Assembly: GCA_016194975.1 (NCBI GenBank)
Contig: JACQAM010000023.1
Coordinates: 248,001-312,000, forward strand
Reading direction: 5' to 3'
DNA length: 64,000 nt
DNA from: Bacteroidota bacterium
Lineage (GTDB): Bacteria > Bacteroidota > Bacteroidia > Palsa-965
Numbering within the stretch: position 1 is the stretch's first letter; each line of letters opens with the position of its first letter. Below, piece by piece: positions 32,970 through 40,389 of this stretch. The translations under genes were made by a program, and so were the position numbers. The notes under the pieces are model-generated. The model ran no database searches and was not told the DNA's origin. It was given only the letters and a program-made list of their open reading frames with translations.

Positions 32970-35243
32970 ATGAAAAAAAATTTATTTTCTGCGGTCTGTC
33001 TTTGTCTTGCATTCACTTACGGATTCTCCCAGACTCCGAAGATCAAGAACACGACAGGTATGAGCGCCACAACACTTGTAGAGCGCAACGCAAATGATCC
33101 GAACGATGTAAGTGGAAAATCAACCATCCGTTTCAATACGGATATTGTTTCTCCTGCACAAATGGATCAGATGAATCTTGATCGTTACCAGGCAATGGTA
33201 AATTCCAATCCGAATTACGACCAGGATCGAAACGCTTATGAGCAGGCCCTTCAGACTTATCTTGCGAACAACGCGAATAGTTATTCTGCGCAAATGACGA
33301 TCACCGTTCCTGTGGTGGTGCACGTAGTTTACAATGGCGCTGTTCAGAATATTTCCGACAACCAGGTGTTGTCGCAGATACAAGTAGTGAATGAAGATTA
33401 TGGCCGCACCAATTCTGATGTTAATACACATTGGTCGCAGGCGGCAAATACTACTATTCAATTCTGTCTTGCGCAGCGTACCCCGGCAGGAGCGGCAACG
33501 AATGGAATTGAGCGTCGTTCTACCACAACTGCATCATGGACAACCAATGATAATGTGAAACATTTTTCAAGCGGTGGACTCGACGCATGGGACCCTACCC
33601 GTTATATGAACATCTGGGTTTGCAATCTCGGAGCTGGTCTTCTTGGTTACGGAGAATTCCCTACAGGAACTGTAAGCAATACCATGGGAGTTGTAATTCT
33701 TTACTCTGCATTCGGAAGTAATTATACTTCTTACGGAACATTTGCCGACATCGCAAATCCTTATGATCGCGGCCGGACTGTAACGCACGAATTTTCTCAC
33801 TGTTTGAATCTTTATCACATCTGGGGCGATGACGGCGGTTCATGTTCAGGAAGCGACCAGTGCGCTGATACGCCGAACCAGGCAGATGCAACAACTACCT
33901 GCTTTACATTCCCACACACTGATGCATGCTCTGCTTCAAATCCCGGAATCATGTTCGAAAATTATATGGATTATTCTTACGATAACTGTTTGAATCTTTT
34001 CACAGCCGGGCAAAAAGCAAGAATGCTGGCTGTGCTTAGTACAACACCTTACAATGCACTCACCACTTCAAACGGATGCCAGTCTCCTGTTTCTGTTCCT
34101 CTTGACGCGGGAATAACTGCAATACTTTCTCCGGGAGCAACAGTTTGCGGATTGACATTCACACCATCCGTTACCATCAAAAACTTCGGAACATCTACAC
34201 TTACTTCAGCAGTGATCCATTACCAGATTGATGCGGCAACACCGGTAACTTACAACTGGTCCGGAAGTCTTGCAACGAATGCAACTGCAAACGTTACGCT
34301 TTCTTCTATGACAACTACAGCCGGCACACATACATTCACTTCGTGGACCACTGCGCCGAATGCAGGAGCAGATGGAAATACGGTGAACGATCAGACGAGT
34401 AGTAATTTCAATGTGATCGCGGGAGCAAATAATCTTCCGTACGCAGAAGGATTTGAATCTGCCACATGGCCGCCTGCAGGATGCACAATAAATAATCCTG
34501 ATGCCGGAACAACATGGGCAAGAACAACTGCTGCTGCTAAAACAGGAGTTGCTTCTGCATACATGGATGATTTCAATTACAATGCAGCAGGACAGATCGA
34601 CGAACTTGTTCTGCCGAACCTGAATCTTTCTTCGGCGCTTAATCCAACTATGACGTTCCAGGTGGCGTACCGCATGTACACGAATCCAACTTCCAATCCA
34701 AATTATACGGATACGCTTCGTGTAATGATCTCTACTGATTGTGGTGCCACATGGACACAACTGTACTTTAAGTATGGAGCAAATCTTACCACTGCAACTC
34801 CGAATTACAGCACAACACTGTTCGTTCCAACGGCTGCACAATGGAGATTGGAAACAATTTCTCTTACTCCGTATGCAGCGCAAACAAATGCCATGATCAA
34901 ATTCAAACACACCTGCGATTATGAAAACCAGATGTACATTGATGATGTAAATATCATGGCTGCATTGGGAATTAATGGAGTGCCGCTGAGCAGTCTCGTT
35001 AATTTCTTCCCGAATCCTTCGAATGACGGAATGATCAATATGAATCTTGCACTTGCACAGCAGGAGAATGTTGTGGTTACAGTGACTGATGCACTTGGTC
35101 AAACTGTAAAAGTTCAGGATCTCGGAAATACAATAGGCGGAACTTTCGGAGTCGATCTTTCTTCACAGTCAGACGGAATTTATTTCGTTACTGTTCAGGC
35201 AGGCGAAGAGAAAACCGTTCAGCGTATAGTGATCAGCCGATAA
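32970..35243 (+). CDS. M43-family zinc metalloprotease with T9SS sorting domain (long form)
   Basis: A 757-residue secreted protease: signal peptide (ends FSQ), propeptide-like region to about residue 100, then a pappalysin (M43) catalytic domain. Zinc ligands are in HEFSHCLNLYHIWGD (His273, Glu274, His277, His283), and the Met-turn is YMDYSYDNCLNLFT. After it come a CARDB/Ig-like module (LDAGITAILSPGATVCGLTFTPSVTIKNFG), a MAM/jelly-roll-like domain (YAEGFESATWPPAGCTINN) and a type A sorting domain (FFPNPSNDGMINM, ending TVQRIVISR). A shorter paralogue follows directly, so the pair arose by tandem duplication with domain gain or loss. A clear terminator lies after the stop. Confidence 0.92.
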   Translation: MKKNLFSAVCLCLAFTYGFSQTPKIKNTTGMSATTLVERNANDPNDVSGKSTIRFNTDIVSPAQMDQMNLDRYQAMVNSNPNYDQDRNAYEQALQTYLANNANSYSAQMTITVPVVVHVVYNGAVQNISDNQVLSQIQVVNEDYGRTNSDVNTHWSQAANTTIQFCLAQRTPAGAATNGIERRSTTTASWTTNDNVKHFSSGGLDAWDPTRYMNIWVCNLGAGLLGYGEFPTGTVSNTMGVVILYSAFGSNYTSYGTFADIANPYDRGRTVTHEFSHCLNLYHIWGDDGGSCSGSDQCADTPNQADATTTCFTFPHTDACSASNPGIMFENYMDYSYDNCLNLFTAGQKARMLAVLSTTPYNALTTSNGCQSPVSVPLDAGITAILSPGATVCGLTFTPSVTIKNFGTSTLTSAVIHYQIDAATPVTYNWSGSLATNATANVTLSSMTTTAGTHTFTSWTTAPNAGADGNTVNDQTSSNFNVIAGANNLPYAEGFESATWPPAGCTINNPDAGTTWARTTAAAKTGVASAYMDDFNYNAAGQIDELVLPNLNLSSALNPTMTFQVAYRMYTNPTSNPNYTDTLRVMISTDCGATWTQLYFKYGANLTTATPNYSTTLFVPTAAQWRLETISLTPYAAQTNAMIKFKHTCDYENQMYIDDVNIMAALGINGVPLSSLVNFFPNPSNDGMINMNLALAQQENVVVTVTDALGQTVKVQDLGNTIGGTFGVDLSSQSDGIYFVTVQAGEEKTVQRIVISR

Positions 35244-35260
35244 TCAGAATAAATCCTGAA

Positions 35261-35292
35261 AAAAACCTGCTTCTGCGAGGCAGGTTTTTTTT
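35261..35292 (+). terminator. Rho-independent terminator after the long M43 protease
   Basis: AAAAACCTGC (35261-35270) pairs with GCAGGTTTTT (from 35280) around a nine-base loop, ending in eight T. Confidence 0.92.
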
Positions 35293-35365
35293 ATTTGCAT
35301 GCGAATCATTATTGATTTTCAATCGTAGAAACAGTAACTTCGTTACATATTAATCCTGACCACAC

Positions 35366-36673
35366 ATGAAAAAACATTTACTACTTCTCACCGGAATTTC
35401 ATTTTCCATCTCATTCATTTCTTTCGGGCAAAATGCAACAATGATTTCTCACCAGAATTCATCGCAGCAGGAAAGATGCGGGATCATGCAGAATGAAACT
35501 TACCTCGAACAACAGGATCCTAATCGCGCAGGAATGCGTGCATCATTCGAACAGAATCTTCAGTCTTACATCGCTGCACATCCAGGACTGGAGAATAGCC
35601 GTTCAGTAATGACTATTCCAGTGGTGGTTCACCTCGTTTATAAAACTGCAGCGCAGAATATTTCTGATGGACAGATCCAGTCGCAGATCACCGTTCTAAA
35701 CCAGGACTGGACGCGAACAAATCCTGACGCGTCGAATACTCCTGCAGTTTGGACAAGCATCGCCGCTAACATCGGGGTTAATTTCTGTCTCGCTACTGTG
35801 GATCCGTCAGGAAATTCTACCACAGGAATTGAGAGGAGAAATACAACGATCACTTCTTTCTCGCAAAACAATAACGTAAAACATTTTTCTTCCGGCGGGC
35901 TCGATATCTGGGATCCGAATAATTATCTCAATATCTGGGTGTGCAATCTCGGAGCTGGTCTTCTTGGTTACGGAGAATTCCCGCTGGTGAATACAACTTC
36001 TACTTTTGGTGTGGTCATTCACTACAGTGTATTCGGAAGCAGCGCAATTTATCCTTCCGGAACTTACCTCGCAGGATATGATCTAGGAAGAACAACTACA
36101 CATGAATTTTCACACTGCTTCGACCTGCTTCACATTTGGGGTGATGATGGAGGCGCTTGCACCGGAAATGATTATTGCATGGATACGCCAAACCAGGCCG
36201 ATGCTACTTTCGGTTCTCCAAGCGGAGTAGTGACTGATGCGTGCTCTCCCTCTTCACCGGGAATTATGTATGAGAATTACATGGATTATTCAGATGATGC
36301 AGTTATGAATCTTTTCACGAATAATCAGAAGACGCGGATACTTGCTGTTCTGAATACGGCTCCCTACAATACGCTTCAGCTTTCCAATCGCTGCGGAACA
36401 GTTGCTGTACAGGAATTATCAATGCTCGGCGCATTCAGCGTTCACCCGAATCCTTCAAACGGAAAATTCACGATCTCTTTTTCCAATAGCAATTTTTCGG
36501 ATATTGACATTCACGTTCTGAATGTTGTTGGCCAAGAAGTTTTCAATGAACATCTCGATGCGCTTAATAATAATGAAGTGGATATTGATCTTACCGGAAA
36601 TGCCGATGGCGTTTATTTCATTCAGGTAAGCGACAAAAAAGATAAAGTGACGCGGAAAATAGTCGTGCAGTAA
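35366..36673 (+). CDS. M43-family zinc metalloprotease with T9SS sorting domain (short form)
   Basis: A 435-residue paralogue of the preceding protease with the same signal, propeptide and catalytic layout. Zinc motif HEFSHCFDLLHIWGD uses His246, Glu247, His250 and His256; the Met-turn is YMDYSDDAVMNLFT. It lacks the CARDB-like and MAM-like modules and goes straight to a type A sorting domain (FSVHPNPSNGKFTIS, ending VTRKIVVQ). It has its own TAACTTCG box near 35337 with a leader of about 20 bases, so it is transcribed separately. A 41-base stretch (35942-35982) is identical to 33621-33661 in the longer copy. Confidence 0.92.
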   Translation: MKKHLLLLTGISFSISFISFGQNATMISHQNSSQQERCGIMQNETYLEQQDPNRAGMRASFEQNLQSYIAAHPGLENSRSVMTIPVVVHLVYKTAAQNISDGQIQSQITVLNQDWTRTNPDASNTPAVWTSIAANIGVNFCLATVDPSGNSTTGIERRNTTITSFSQNNNVKHFSSGGLDIWDPNNYLNIWVCNLGAGLLGYGEFPLVNTTSTFGVVIHYSVFGSSAIYPSGTYLAGYDLGRTTTHEFSHCFDLLHIWGDDGGACTGNDYCMDTPNQADATFGSPSGVVTDACSPSSPGIMYENYMDYSDDAVMNLFTNNQKTRILAVLNTAPYNTLQLSNRCGTVAVQELSMLGAFSVHPNPSNGKFTISFSNSNFSDIDIHVLNVVGQEVFNEHLDALNNNEVDIDLTGNADGVYFIQVSDKKDKVTRKIVVQ

Positions 36674-36694: not shown

Positions 36695-36741
36695 GGTCCC
36701 CTTTCCTGTTCAATGTTTAACTTTGTTCCGGAAAGGGGACC
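36695..36741. terminator. 12-bp perfect inverted repeat enclosing the mqnE -7 box
   Basis: GGTCCCCTTTCC (36695-36706) is the exact complement of GGAAAGGGGACC (36730-36741), with a 23-base loop, followed by TTTCATTT. Read from the protease gene it could end transcription, although the T-run is poor. The loop contains TAACTTTG (36718-36725), the presumed mqnE -7 box, and the right arm supplies a GGAAAGGGG sequence ahead of the mqnE ATG. Confidence 0.6.
36718..36725 (+). promoter_or_regulatory. -7 box of mqnE
   Basis: A perfect TAACTTTG; no good -33 TTG lies 18-22 bases ahead. Transcription would start near 36730, within the right arm of the inverted repeat, leaving a leader of about 20 bases with GGAAAGGGG before the ATG at 36750. 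Confidence 0.5.
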
Positions 36742-36749
36742 TTTCATTT

Positions 36750-37922
36750 ATGGATACAGTTGCAATTGAAAAGACGCAAAACATGATTGGAAGATCTGCT
36801 GCAGGATCTTCATTGAAAAAAGTTGCAAATAAAATATTCGCAGGAGAAAGAATAACGACGGGCGATGCACTTTTACTTTACCATGAAGCTGACATTGGAT
36901 TCGTAGGTTCGCTTGCGAATATTGTACGTGAGAAAAAACACGGCGATCACGTTTACTTCAATCGTAATTTTCATATTGAACCTACGAACATCTGCGTTTT
37001 CGATTGTAAATTCTGTTCTTATTCCCGCTTATTGAAACAAAAAGACGGCGCATGGGAATTGAGTGAAGAACAAATGCTGGATATTGTTCACTCTTATAAA
37101 GATCAGCCGGTGACCGAAGTTCACATTGTAGGAGGCGTGCATCCGAAACTCGGATTGGAATTCTTCGGTAATGTTCTGAAAAAAATAAAACAGATACGTC
37201 CTTCCATCCACATCAAAGCTTTTACTGCTGTTGAATTGGAATATATGTTCCGCAAAGCAAAAGTTTCTGTTGAAGAAGGATTGAAATTTCTTCGCGATCA
37301 TGGATTGGATTCTTTGCCCGGTGGTGGCGCTGAAATTTTTGACGAAGAGATCAGGAAAAAGATCTGCGAAGATAAATGCACCAGCGAGCAATGGCTTCAC
37401 ATTCACGCAACCGCGCATACATTGGGAATTCCATCGAATGCGACTATGCTTTATGGCCATATAGAAAAGTATGAGCATCGTATTGCTCACATGGATCGCT
37501 TGCGTCAATTGCAGGACCGCACGAAAGGATTCAACACATTTATCCCGCTCAAATTCCGCAATCATGATAACCAGATGTCGGCCGTTCCTGAAATTTCCGT
37601 GATCGAAGACATGCGGAATTATTCTATTGCAAGAATATTTCTCGATAACATTGCCCACCTGAAAGCGTACTGGCCCATGCTCGGAAGAACCAATGCGCAA
37701 CTCTCGCTGAATTTCGGAGTAGATGATCTCGATGGAACTATCGACGATACAACGAAGATCTATTCGATGGCCGGTTCGGAAGAACAGAATCCTTCCATGA
37801 CAACTGATGAATTAGTGGAACTCATTCTCGGATCAGGAAGAAGCCCGATCGAAAGAGATACGCTATACCGGGTTGTTCATGATCATAAAGCGGAAAAGCA
37901 TCCCATTTCAGGTTTACACTAA
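36750..37922 (+). CDS. mqnE: Aminofutalosine synthase (radical SAM)
   Basis: Condenses 3-[(1-carboxyvinyl)oxy]benzoate with SAM to aminofutalosine, the second step of the futalosine menaquinone pathway. The 390-residue protein has the 4Fe-4S motif CVFDCKFC (Cys82, Cys86, Cys89) in NICVFDCKFCSYSR, HIVGGVHPKLGLEFF, LDSLPGGGAEIFDEEIRKKIC, and FNTFIPLKFRNHDNQMS, which separates MqnE from MqnC. ATG 36750 is chosen over a frame from 36723 because the promoter box overlaps that region. It complements mqnB and mqnD at 4093-5776; mqnA and mqnC are not in the window. Confidence 0.94.
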   Translation: MDTVAIEKTQNMIGRSAAGSSLKKVANKIFAGERITTGDALLLYHEADIGFVGSLANIVREKKHGDHVYFNRNFHIEPTNICVFDCKFCSYSRLLKQKDGAWELSEEQMLDIVHSYKDQPVTEVHIVGGVHPKLGLEFFGNVLKKIKQIRPSIHIKAFTAVELEYMFRKAKVSVEEGLKFLRDHGLDSLPGGGAEIFDEEIRKKICEDKCTSEQWLHIHATAHTLGIPSNATMLYGHIEKYEHRIAHMDRLRQLQDRTKGFNTFIPLKFRNHDNQMSAVPEISVIEDMRNYSIARIFLDNIAHLKAYWPMLGRTNAQLSLNFGVDDLDGTIDDTTKIYSMAGSEEQNPSMTTDELVELILGSGRSPIERDTLYRVVHDHKAEKHPISGLH

Positions 37923-37948
37923 TAATCAAAACCAATGTCCTTATATAA

Positions 37949-37980
37949 TTGTAAATAACTGATTATCAATAGTAATTTTG
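37949..37980 (+). promoter_or_regulatory. Promoter without a downstream ORF
   Basis: TTG (37949-37951), 21 bases, then a perfect TAATTTTG (37973-37980). Transcription would start near 37985 in a stretch without a usable reading frame and would reach the terminator at 38172-38223. Confidence 0.5.
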
Positions 37981-37984
37981 TTAT

Positions 37985-38223
37985 TCTATTGGTAAAACAA
38001 ATGTCCTGATAAGAATCGCCACCGCTATTCCTTCTTTTTATTCTTTTTCACTTTTGTCCTGTCAGCTAATTGAAAGCAACAGATTACTTCCAACAAGTAA
38101 CAACGAACCAATCTTCGGTTCTCTGTCACAGAAATAGGGTCCTGTGAAATTGCGCCAGTTACGCTACACTAAATAAACCTGGACACGTATGGGGGAAACG
38201 TACGAACCAGGTTTATTCTTTTT
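37985..38223 (+). ncRNA. Candidate small RNA of about 235 nt
   Basis: The 328-base gap between mqnE and the HAD gene has its own promoter and a strong terminator 235 bases apart, with only tiny frames between (the first ATG is closed after two codons). Local hairpins are GAACC/GGTTC (38105-38122 region) and CACAG/CTGTG (38129-38145 region). It could be a 6S-like or other regulatory RNA, or merely an untranslated tail. The RNA class is not recognised. Confidence 0.35.
38172..38223 (+). terminator. Strong rho-independent terminator
   Basis: AATAAACCTGG (38172-38182) is perfectly complementary to CCAGGTTTATT (38207-38217); the stem may continue with an inner CGTA/TACG pairing, and CTTTTTT follows. 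It ends 28 bases before the HAD gene start and 250 bases after the mqnE stop. Confidence 0.88.
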
Positions 38224-38250
38224 TAAAAACTTCATTCGTAATTTTCGCCC

Positions 38251-38919
38251 GTGATCAATGCAGCTATTTTTGATATGGACGGATTGCTTGTCGATTCAGA
38301 ACCGTGGTGGCGGGTAGCGGAAAGAAATGTTTTCGGAAAATATTCCACAGTACCTACAGAAGAAGATTTCGAAAAGATGATGGGCAACAGGATCCAGGAT
38401 GTGATCCGGAAATGGTATGATGAACATCCGTGGAAAAATTTTTCTCCCGAAGAAACGAAAGATGAAATTGTAAATGAAGTTTTCCGCCTCGTGAGCACGA
38501 ATGCACGCCTGCTCCCGGGTGTGAACGAATGCCTGCATTTCTTTTCGGAAAAAAAAATTCCCATTGCACTCGCCTCCTCTTCTCCACTCTATTTGATCAA
38601 CCAACTGATGTCGCATTTCGGGCTATTGAAATATTTCCATGTGGTGCACAGTGCTGAATTTGAAAAAAACGGGAAACCTTCACCGGATGTTTTTCTTTCC
38701 ACAGCAAAACTTCTTCATGTGAATGCAAAGAATTGCATTGTATTTGAAGATTCGTTCAATGGCGTCCTCGCTGCAAAATTGGCGAAGATGAAATGCGTAG
38801 CTGTTCCGGCAAAAGAATATTTTCACGATCCGAAATTTGACATCGCAGATATGAAACTCGGGAGCTTGGAGGAATTCAACCTGACTGCTTTCGCCGCGAT
38901 AAATGACTTTTCTCATTGA
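38251..38919 (+). CDS. HAD-superfamily sugar-phosphate phosphatase (HxpB/YniC-like)
   Basis: A 222-residue HAD subfamily IA hydrolase. Motif I is FDMDGLLVDSE (nucleophile and acid/base Asp), motif II is the Ser in ALASSSP, motif III the Lys in GKPSPDVFL, and motif IV VFEDSFNGVLAAKLAKM. The N-terminal AAIFDMDGLLVDSEPWW closely follows E. coli YniC/HxpB, which dephosphorylates 2-deoxyglucose-6-P and hexitol phosphates. The start is GTG; a TAATTTTC box ends four bases before it, predicting a leaderless message right after a terminator. Confidence 0.88.
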   Translation: MINAAIFDMDGLLVDSEPWWRVAERNVFGKYSTVPTEEDFEKMMGNRIQDVIRKWYDEHPWKNFSPEETKDEIVNEVFRLVSTNARLLPGVNECLHFFSEKKIPIALASSSPLYLINQLMSHFGLLKYFHVVHSAEFEKNGKPSPDVFLSTAKLLHVNAKNCIVFEDSFNGVLAAKLAKMKCVAVPAKEYFHDPKFDIADMKLGSLEEFNLTAFAAINDFSH

Positions 38920-39000: not shown

Positions 39001-40389
39001 ATGAAAAAAATAGCCGTACTCTTAGTTCTCACCGTTATTTCAATTTCTATTTCTGCACAAACAAATGTAAGCGGGGGAATTTTCGCAAACACTACCTGGA
39101 CGCTCGCAAACAGTCCGTACATAGTAACAGGAAATGTTGTTTTATTCCCGACTTACGTACTCACCATTCAGCCCGGGGTGGTGGTGAAATTCGATGCAGG
39201 AACTCAACTCGAGATCAGGCAGGCTTCACTTATTGCACTTGGCACCAGCACCGACTCCATTACGTTCACGAGTAACGGATCAGTTGTTGCAAGCGCGTGG
39301 AGCGAGGTTTACCTCAACGGAGGAACAATGAATTGCGAATTCACTTATTGCAATTTCCATTATGGAAACAATGCACTCAATGACCAACGCGCTACCAGCG
39401 GCGATTCGCTGATCATCAGGAATTGCATTTTCAGCAATAACAACACCGGCTTTATCGGAACAGGTACAGGATGGAATTGCGGGATCATCGAATACTCTTC
39501 TTTCACGAATAACAGCACAGGCGCAGCTGATGTGTACGGCACCACGATGAATTACTGCGACATGTCGTACAACTCCAACGCCGGTTTCTCTGCTCACTCT
39601 CTCAATATTCTAAATCATTGCACGTTCAATCACAACGGAACGGGACTGGGTGATACGCGAAACACCACGCTCAACTATTGCACAGTGAATAATAATTTTA
39701 CGGGCATCGCTGCAGGAAACGGAGTGGCTTGTAATTACTGCACCATCGATTCAAACAGCGTGACCGGGATTGACCTCGGTAAAACTTCGCAGATCCACAA
39801 TTGCGTGATCGATTACAATGGTGTAGGAATTTATGATCACCAGAATGGTTTCAATCCTTCGGATATCCGTTACAATGCCATCAATGGAAATAACATCGGC
39901 ATTCATCTCACGCTGATCATGGACAGCATCGCGTGCAATCACATTTGTGACAACACTACGTATGATCTGCAATACACCGGTGGCAACAATGTAAATCTGA
40001 AAAATAATTTCTGGTGTGTTCCTGATTCTGCTTCGCTTCAACCACTCATTTACGACGCGCACGATAATGTGAGTTACGGAATTGTAAATTATATGCCGAT
40101 GGATGACGGAACCTGTGCAACAGTAACCGGTGTTATAGAAAATAATTCTGCCAATTTTTCTTTCCGGATTTTTCCTAATCCCGCCCTAAATGAATTTGTA
40201 GTGGAATTGCCAGCAAATATTTCCTTTGCGAATATCCGCATCTACAATTCGATTGGAGAAATTTGCTTTGCTGCTCAAACAGCGAACACAACCAACCACA
40301 TTGATGTAACGGATCTTTCTGCAGGATTATATTTTGTAGAAGTGAGATCCGGAAATTCAGTTGCGCGGGAAAAGTTGGTGAAGGAATAA
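39001..40389 (+). CDS. Secreted right-handed beta-helix protein with T9SS sorting domain
   Basis: A 462-residue protein: signal peptide (MKKIAVLLVLTVISISISAQ), then a parallel beta-helix built from short repeats such as NYCTVNNNFTGIA, NYCTIDSNSVTGID, HNCVIDYNGVGIY and RYNAINGNNIGIH (pectate-lyase-like/NosD-type periodicity, about residues 100-330). It ends in a type A sorting domain (FRIFPNPALNEFVVEL, ending LSAGLYFVEVRSGNSVAREKLVKE). No catalytic residues of a polysaccharide lyase are evident. A broken copy of its last 30 codons lies about 560 bases downstream. Confidence 0.88.
   Translation: MKKIAVLLVLTVISISISAQTNVSGGIFANTTWTLANSPYIVTGNVVLFPTYVLTIQPGVVVKFDAGTQLEIRQASLIALGTSTDSITFTSNGSVVASAWSEVYLNGGTMNCEFTYCNFHYGNNALNDQRATSGDSLIIRNCIFSNNNTGFIGTGTGWNCGIIEYSSFTNNSTGAADVYGTTMNYCDMSYNSNAGFSAHSLNILNHCTFNHNGTGLGDTRNTTLNYCTVNNNFTGIAAGNGVACNYCTIDSNSVTGIDLGKTSQIHNCVIDYNGVGIYDHQNGFNPSDIRYNAINGNNIGIHLTLIMDSIACNHICDNTTYDLQYTGGNNVNLKNNFWCVPDSASLQPLIYDAHDNVSYGIVNYMPMDDGTCATVTGVIENNSANFSFRIFPNPALNEFVVELPANISFANIRIYNSIGEICFAAQTANTTNHIDVTDLSAGLYFVEVRSGNSVAREKLVKE

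Follow-up and report, generated by a model that had tools for sequence, protein, structure and literature searches.

The 161-nt stretch at 38061-38221, on the forward strand between mqnE and a HAD phosphatase gene of an uncultured Bacteroidia bacterium, is best explained, with moderate confidence, as a small RNA that is transcribed on its own under the control of an activator, acts in trans and belongs to a new family restricted to this lineage. Positions refer to the window, the whole 64 kb stretch of DNA that was analysed. On comparative sequence evidence, the existence of the small RNA is very probable, because its promoter geometry, a hairpin and its terminator are kept in four other genomes amid sequence divergence; its probable identity is that of a regulatory RNA from a previously undescribed family, because the same gene and its two-box control region recur after mqnE in those four relatives. 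An initial annotation had proposed a small RNA between the two protein-coding genes; such a gene is supported, with its start shifted to about 38061 from a position just behind 37980.

The upstream gene, mqnE (36723-37922, forward strand), encodes aminofutalosine synthase of the menaquinone pathway (NCBIfam TIGR03700, 448 bits against a cut-off of 434.6), and the downstream neighbour (38251-38919, forward strand) encodes an HxpB-like HAD phosphatase, a sugar-phosphatase (NF008087, 226 bits against a cut-off of 191), whose start codon lies 30 nt past 38221. The search for relatives of the RNA started from mqnE and compared 111 mqnE-bearing loci (the window counted twice), of which 109 have at least 450 nt past the gene. 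The same arrangement lies 3′ of mqnE in five of the 12 genomes of the family: the window's own (G000), G003 (L031/L101), G005 (L039/L100), G006 (L034) and G007 (L035). Its parts are a pair of TGTCC boxes spaced by 66 bp, a −7 box resembling TAnnTTTG, a hairpin (P3) that bears a G-rich loop on CAG/CTG, and a terminator whose loop is likewise G-rich. The initial annotation also called for a conservation check, and position, promoter geometry, P3 and terminator prove to be conserved between the window and its four relatives. In a plain DNA search of 59 relatives, short matches alone were obtained and taken as chance; a nucleotide profile search (nhmmer) against the relatives' loci gave a weak match directly 3′ of mqnE in L031/L101 (E = 0.013).

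The conserved control region carries a first TGTCC box at 37936-37940, a second at 38002-38006 and a −7 box, CACTTTTG, at 38049-38056, which matches TAnnTTTG with one mismatch and reads TACATTTG in three relatives and TACTTTTA in G003. The two boxes are 66 bp apart in all five genomes; relative to the −7 box they lie at −113 and −47 in four of them and at −114 and −48 in G007, and the first box of G005 reads TGTCT. When the sequences are anchored on the boxes, the region from −125 to −9 contains 18 invariant columns, versus 1.6 ± 1.3 (largest 7) in 1306 shifted controls, with merely 24-57% identity in the spacer between the boxes (24-40% against the window copy). TAnnTTTG is the −7 consensus of the primary sigma factor in Flavobacterium, where it is placed at −12 to −5 (PMC9723704, as far as the available part of the paper goes), and in Bacteroides too, according to the accessible part of PMC7366714. 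From the Flavobacterium placement, the RNA is predicted to start at 38061, where its closing helix begins; by eye, the −7 box ends 3-5 nt 5′ of that helix in all five genomes. The structured part thus appears, from its sequence, to have its own promoter at its 5′ end.

A different promoter had been put forward initially, and it is present as described: a consensus-type TTG (37949-37951), 21 nt and TAATTTTG (37973-37980), together spanning 37949-37980 on the forward strand between both TGTCC boxes. As the driver of the RNA it gives way to the conserved −7 box at 38049-38056; none of the four relatives has an equivalent, and no TAnnTTTG occurs in them from the mqnE stop to the conserved −7 box. 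Within the window, TTG-N19-22-TAnnTTTG occurs five times, both strands counted.

The promoter geometry also bears on whether the mqnE mRNA reads through to 38221, with the RNA either processed out of it or a mere tail. The RNA lies on the same strand as mqnE and behind it in all five genomes, and in the window no forward-strand terminator was flagged from the mqnE stop to 38172. Against this, the conserved succession of TGTCC, TGTCC and −7 box ends just before the structured part begins, and G001, G002 and G004 carry the HAD gene directly behind mqnE (after 51, 10 and 24 nt, respectively) with no RNA between. Further, a terminator-like hairpin of G003 (L031), seen by eye in the unfolded sequence, precedes the −7 box of the RNA and could terminate mqnE; as it overlaps the second TGTCC box, the mqnE transcript may stop at the binding site of the putative regulator. 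Because the promoter is conserved, the long 3′ tail of mqnE that the initial annotation had allowed for is unlikely to be the main form, though some read-through may occur.

At the other end of the proposed RNA, the strong terminator noted at the outset is borne out. The intrinsic terminator at 38172-38221 (forward strand), with a G-rich loop (GGGGGAAA) and a U-tract, folds at −20.9 kcal/mol, versus a shuffled mean of −8.5 kcal/mol (z = −5.0; none of 200 shuffles as good). A scan of the 64 kb for 45-nt segments with a folding energy of −17 kcal/mol or below, followed by 6 T in 8, gave five clusters on the forward strand, including this one, and none on the reverse strand; a simple consensus terminator scan missed it, and its stem has an internal loop. 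A hairpin followed by a T-rich stretch closes the RNA in all five genomes, and the terminator loop is G-rich in each.

The folding energy of the whole transcript depends on where it is taken to begin. A fold of 37985-38222 is unexceptional (z = −1.8; 10 of 200 shuffles equally good), and that of 38061-38221 is exceptional (−46.0 kcal/mol, z = −3.8; 0 of 200), largely because of the terminator. Without the terminator, the body of the window RNA has a z of −2.1 (8 of 300 shuffles equally good), and those of its relatives have z values of −1.6 (G003), −0.7 (G006), −1.2 (G007) and −0.7 (G005); terminator-less folding energy is therefore unremarkable in four of the five genomes, modestly below that of shuffles.

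The predicted body is closed by a helix, P0/P1, that pairs 38061-38072 with 38156-38167; two of its pairs enter the subtype B count given below. All five copies allow this helix to be drawn; it appears at least partly in the minimum-energy folds of four and is absent from that of G006. Inside it lie hairpin P2 (38084-38100, ACTTCC-loop-AAGT, aligned with G003) and hairpin P3 (38126-38147, stem TCACAG/CTGTGA, loop AAATAGGGTC), the most conserved element of the RNA. P3, with CAG/CTG on top and a G-rich loop, is common to all five copies; its stem is present in each, the lower half using different pairs, with a single mismatch in G003 and another in G005. The copies fall into two subtypes whose P3 loops differ by exactly three bases. 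In particular, subtype A (G005, G006 and G007) combines the loop AGGGGTC with an additional hairpin, P4; subtype B (the window and G003) has the loop AAATAGGGTC and the ACTTCC-AAGT hairpin, and is devoid of P4.

Compensatory changes were another check that had been suggested. Double-sided changes affect 5 of 23 pairs in the three sequences of subtype A (94% of cells paired; 2 of 500 shuffles as high) and 5 of 14 pairs in the two sequences of subtype B (96% of cells paired; 18 of 500 shuffles as high). Because the structures come from these very sequences, of which there are few, the counts lend support without amounting to proof. In an automatic alignment of all five sequences, RNAalifold recovered P3 and the terminator alone, with a covariation term near zero; an automatic two-sequence alignment of subtype B was dropped, its 3′ strand being misaligned. 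An RNA model of subtype A (R1) gives the window copy 6.6 bits, at the level of chance matches, and a subtype B model (R2) misses the main copies of subtype A. Since the three-member model fails on the window copy and divergence is high, the case for homology is built on position, the geometry of the promoter and a single hairpin; for the transcribed part itself, common descent would accordingly be argued from context, P3 and overall architecture.

The initial annotation had seen no usable reading frame here. No forward open reading frame of at least 30 aa lies between mqnE and the HAD gene in the window, and the longest frames within the RNA are 25 aa (window), 22 (G003), 54 (open, G006), 41 (G007) and 23 (open, G005). 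One frame nevertheless runs through P3 without a stop codon in every copy (window 38101-38170), and its translation at P3 is TE(I)GSC or SEGSC. By eye, this frame has no ATG, GTG or TTG start in the window copy, which makes a peptide unlikely, and its openness is taken as a by-product of the conserved loop.

The close spacing to the HAD gene raises the question of a cis-acting leader or attenuator that controls it, a reading that we consider very unlikely. The HAD gene follows the RNA in four of the five genomes at issue, as it does in the window at a distance of 30 nt. A possible −7 box of its own (TAATTTTC, 38239-38246, forward strand) lies at −12 to −5 of its GTG start codon, and a TAnnTTT box occupies that place in four of the seven genomes where HAD follows mqnE (G000, G001 and G007, and G005 provided that the ATG at +341 is the start). 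For the remaining three there is no clear HAD promoter, which favours a leader: the box is shifted by one base in G003, G004 has TATTTATA, and the 10-nt gap of G002 leaves no room. Where present, the box suggests that the HAD mRNA could be leaderless and started past the RNA's terminator. Moreover, a second RNA and approximately 500 nt intervene between the first RNA and HAD in G007, and in G006 a frame on the opposite strand, and not HAD, lies in the roughly 135 bases between the terminator and the locus end. The promoter-like box and the opposite-strand frame together indicate that the RNA is probably not a HAD leader, in keeping with a separate small RNA gene.

The Rfam search that had been recommended, the 6S-Flavo model included, returned nothing over cut-off: there were no matches at the locus at the gathering cut-off, and at permissive settings (up to E = 2, five loci) all eight matches were below cut-off and none fell on the RNA. 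One candidate, rli40, which scored 13.9 bits on the opposite strand at the terminator, was rejected as far below its cut-off. A literature search joining mqnE with small RNA found no papers.

The initial annotation had also mentioned a 6S-type RNA. 6S RNAs have a terminal closing helix and a rod with a large central bubble. If the present RNA were the 6S RNA of this lineage, it would bind RNA polymerase by mimicking an open promoter; its length class and closing helix fit 6S RNA (families RF00013 and RF01685), and no other 6S RNA was recognised (RF01685 in its own genome; RF00013 in the 12 family genomes), so that the role would be vacant. However, no 6S match occurs at the locus up to E = 5, the predicted body is branched, with a conserved apical loop and no central bubble, the promoter looks regulated, and the RNA was not found in seven of the 12 family genomes, including G001, which is 100% complete. 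Overall, a 6S identity appears most improbable, on model searches of low power: RF01685 found nothing in the window's own genome, a weak test in which 0 of 14 control genomes passed the cut-off, and RF00013 found nothing over cut-off in the 12 family genomes, with 4 of 14 controls passing and Bacteroides ihuae not among the six controls that matched at all. As a separate observation, the 6S RNA of the G000-G011 lineage seems to be unrecognised by RF00013 (12 genomes) and by RF01685 (own genome).

No copy of the RNA was found in seven of the 12 family genomes. mqnE is present in 11 of the 12 family genomes, G011 being without a match. Besides the three genomes in which HAD directly follows mqnE, G008-G010 have no RNA 3′ of mqnE, and the next stretch looks, by eye, like another gene. 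Five of the seven genomes without a copy are 59-84% complete, and the models are insensitive across subtypes. On a poorly resolved MqnE tree, with 2 of 13 inner branches well supported, three gain or loss changes are needed, and the copies do not cluster beyond shuffles. In 59 and in 395 genomes, R1 matched just its three training genomes below E = 0.05; a match in G044 (E = 0.87, 59-genome search) looks like coding sequence by eye and was rejected. R2 recovered its two training genomes among the 12 family genomes; its best other match, in G004 (E = 0.03), was set aside, with no TGTCC in the preceding 260 bases.

The pattern TGTCC-61-TGTCY-GGTCCTG had six matches in 395 genomes, versus nine for the reversed control; four are RNA loci, G005 being missed because its first box is TGTCT, and the other two (G119 and G322) lack, by eye, a −7 box at the position where it should lie. 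Neither R1 nor this box-and-loop pattern yielded a convincing copy outside the family among the 395 genomes of the class; given the strict filters and fast divergence, copies may have been overlooked, inside the family too. The two-box pattern with a −7 box occurs at 40 places in 28 of the 59 genomes, versus 128 for the reversed control; five are the RNA loci, and GGTCCTG follows at none of the 27 other places examined. A tighter box pattern (three matches in 12 genomes versus five reversed) is uninformative because it missed all five known promoters. Single boxes in the window number 6 versus 2 reversed for GA[ACT]TGTCC, and 11 versus 17 reversed for ATGTCC[GT]. No second gene under a two-box promoter was identified by the pattern searches of the 59 genomes, the 12 genomes and the window.

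The arrangement suggests how such an RNA could work. A putative activator would bind the two TGTCC boxes, 66 bp apart, and help the primary sigma factor to use the −7 box at 38049-38056; the resulting transcript of approximately 161 nt would start at about 38061 and end at the terminator at 38221. The helix formed by both RNA ends would close the body, and the terminator would protect the 3′ end. The exposed G-rich loop of P3 (AAATAGGGTC in the window, AGGGGTC in three relatives) would then act as the seed, probably pairing in trans with C-rich stretches of mRNAs, and the G-rich loop of the terminator is perhaps exposed and pairs likewise. We infer transcription, the activator, action in trans and the role of the loop from these features. 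Alternatively, the G-rich loops could titrate an RNA-binding protein instead of pairing with mRNAs. Each RNA has two such loops, and a conserved loop on a varying stem equally suits recognition by a protein; pairing is equally compatible with these features, and titration seems quite improbable.

G007 contains a second, diverged tandem copy of the RNA (L035, 842-965, reverse strand; E = 0.0005 with R1), which an R2 match at E = 1.7 overlaps. It has a terminator and, by eye, an apparent −7 box of its own; the 200 bases 5′ of that box contain neither TGTCC nor TGTCT, and the hairpin of this copy, ATGCCCCAGGCAT, is C-rich in place of G-rich. These features invite a broader reading that we regard as rather unlikely: in a fast-evolving family, the transcript would turn over almost completely while the 66-bp two-box promoter, the G-rich loop and the site behind mqnE stay fixed, so that promoter and regulator form the conserved device, and the tandem pair of G007, with its separate promoters and C-rich second copy, could make one RNA a target or sponge of the other.

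Intergenic small RNAs are a known kind; what would be new here is a family with a rigid two-box promoter. As of 2020, there had been hardly any work on the action of trans-encoded small RNAs in Bacteroides, according to the accessible part of PMC7366714. The same source describes GibS of Bacteroides thetaiotaomicron, an intergenic RNA of 145 nt with its own promoter and intrinsic terminator that is conserved within the genus, condition-dependent and pairs with mRNAs. The candidate shares the intergenic location, a similar length and, as predictions, the promoter and terminator. In contrast, the seed of GibS is its mainly single-stranded, conserved 5′ part, behind a PM2 promoter, whereas in the candidate the 5′ end is predicted to be closed and the conserved loop is apical; the two are compared by description and not by sequence, within what the available text gives. 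Likewise, the Rfp RNAs of Flavobacterium psychrophilum are independent short transcripts (median 176 bp) with no coding potential, and the third stem-loop of one of them, Rfp18, which has a strong predicted fold, is its predicted pairing region (available part of PMC9723704). By that description, the candidate resembles Rfp18 and the other Rfp RNAs as a short, putatively independent RNA with a stem-loop as proposed pairing region, and it differs in that the Rfp RNAs are conserved in the genus Flavobacterium.

The candidate was found through a conserved promoter and one loop, with the rest diverged, a pattern that RNA-model searches miss. If it is transcribed, its regulator could be sought from the promoter architecture defined in five genomes, and its targets could be tested with a defined loop.

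Two further observations concern the surroundings. The group of mqnE, RNA and HAD gene is flanked by proteins with type IX secretion tails (Por_Secre_tail) at 35366-36673, an M43-type peptidase, and at 39001-40389. A Thr_leader match at 35224-35294 (E = 0.006, below cut-off) was rejected; it covers an ordinary-looking terminator and was probably caused by it, namely the strong intrinsic terminator at 35253-35293, which lies 3′ of a gene ending at 35243.
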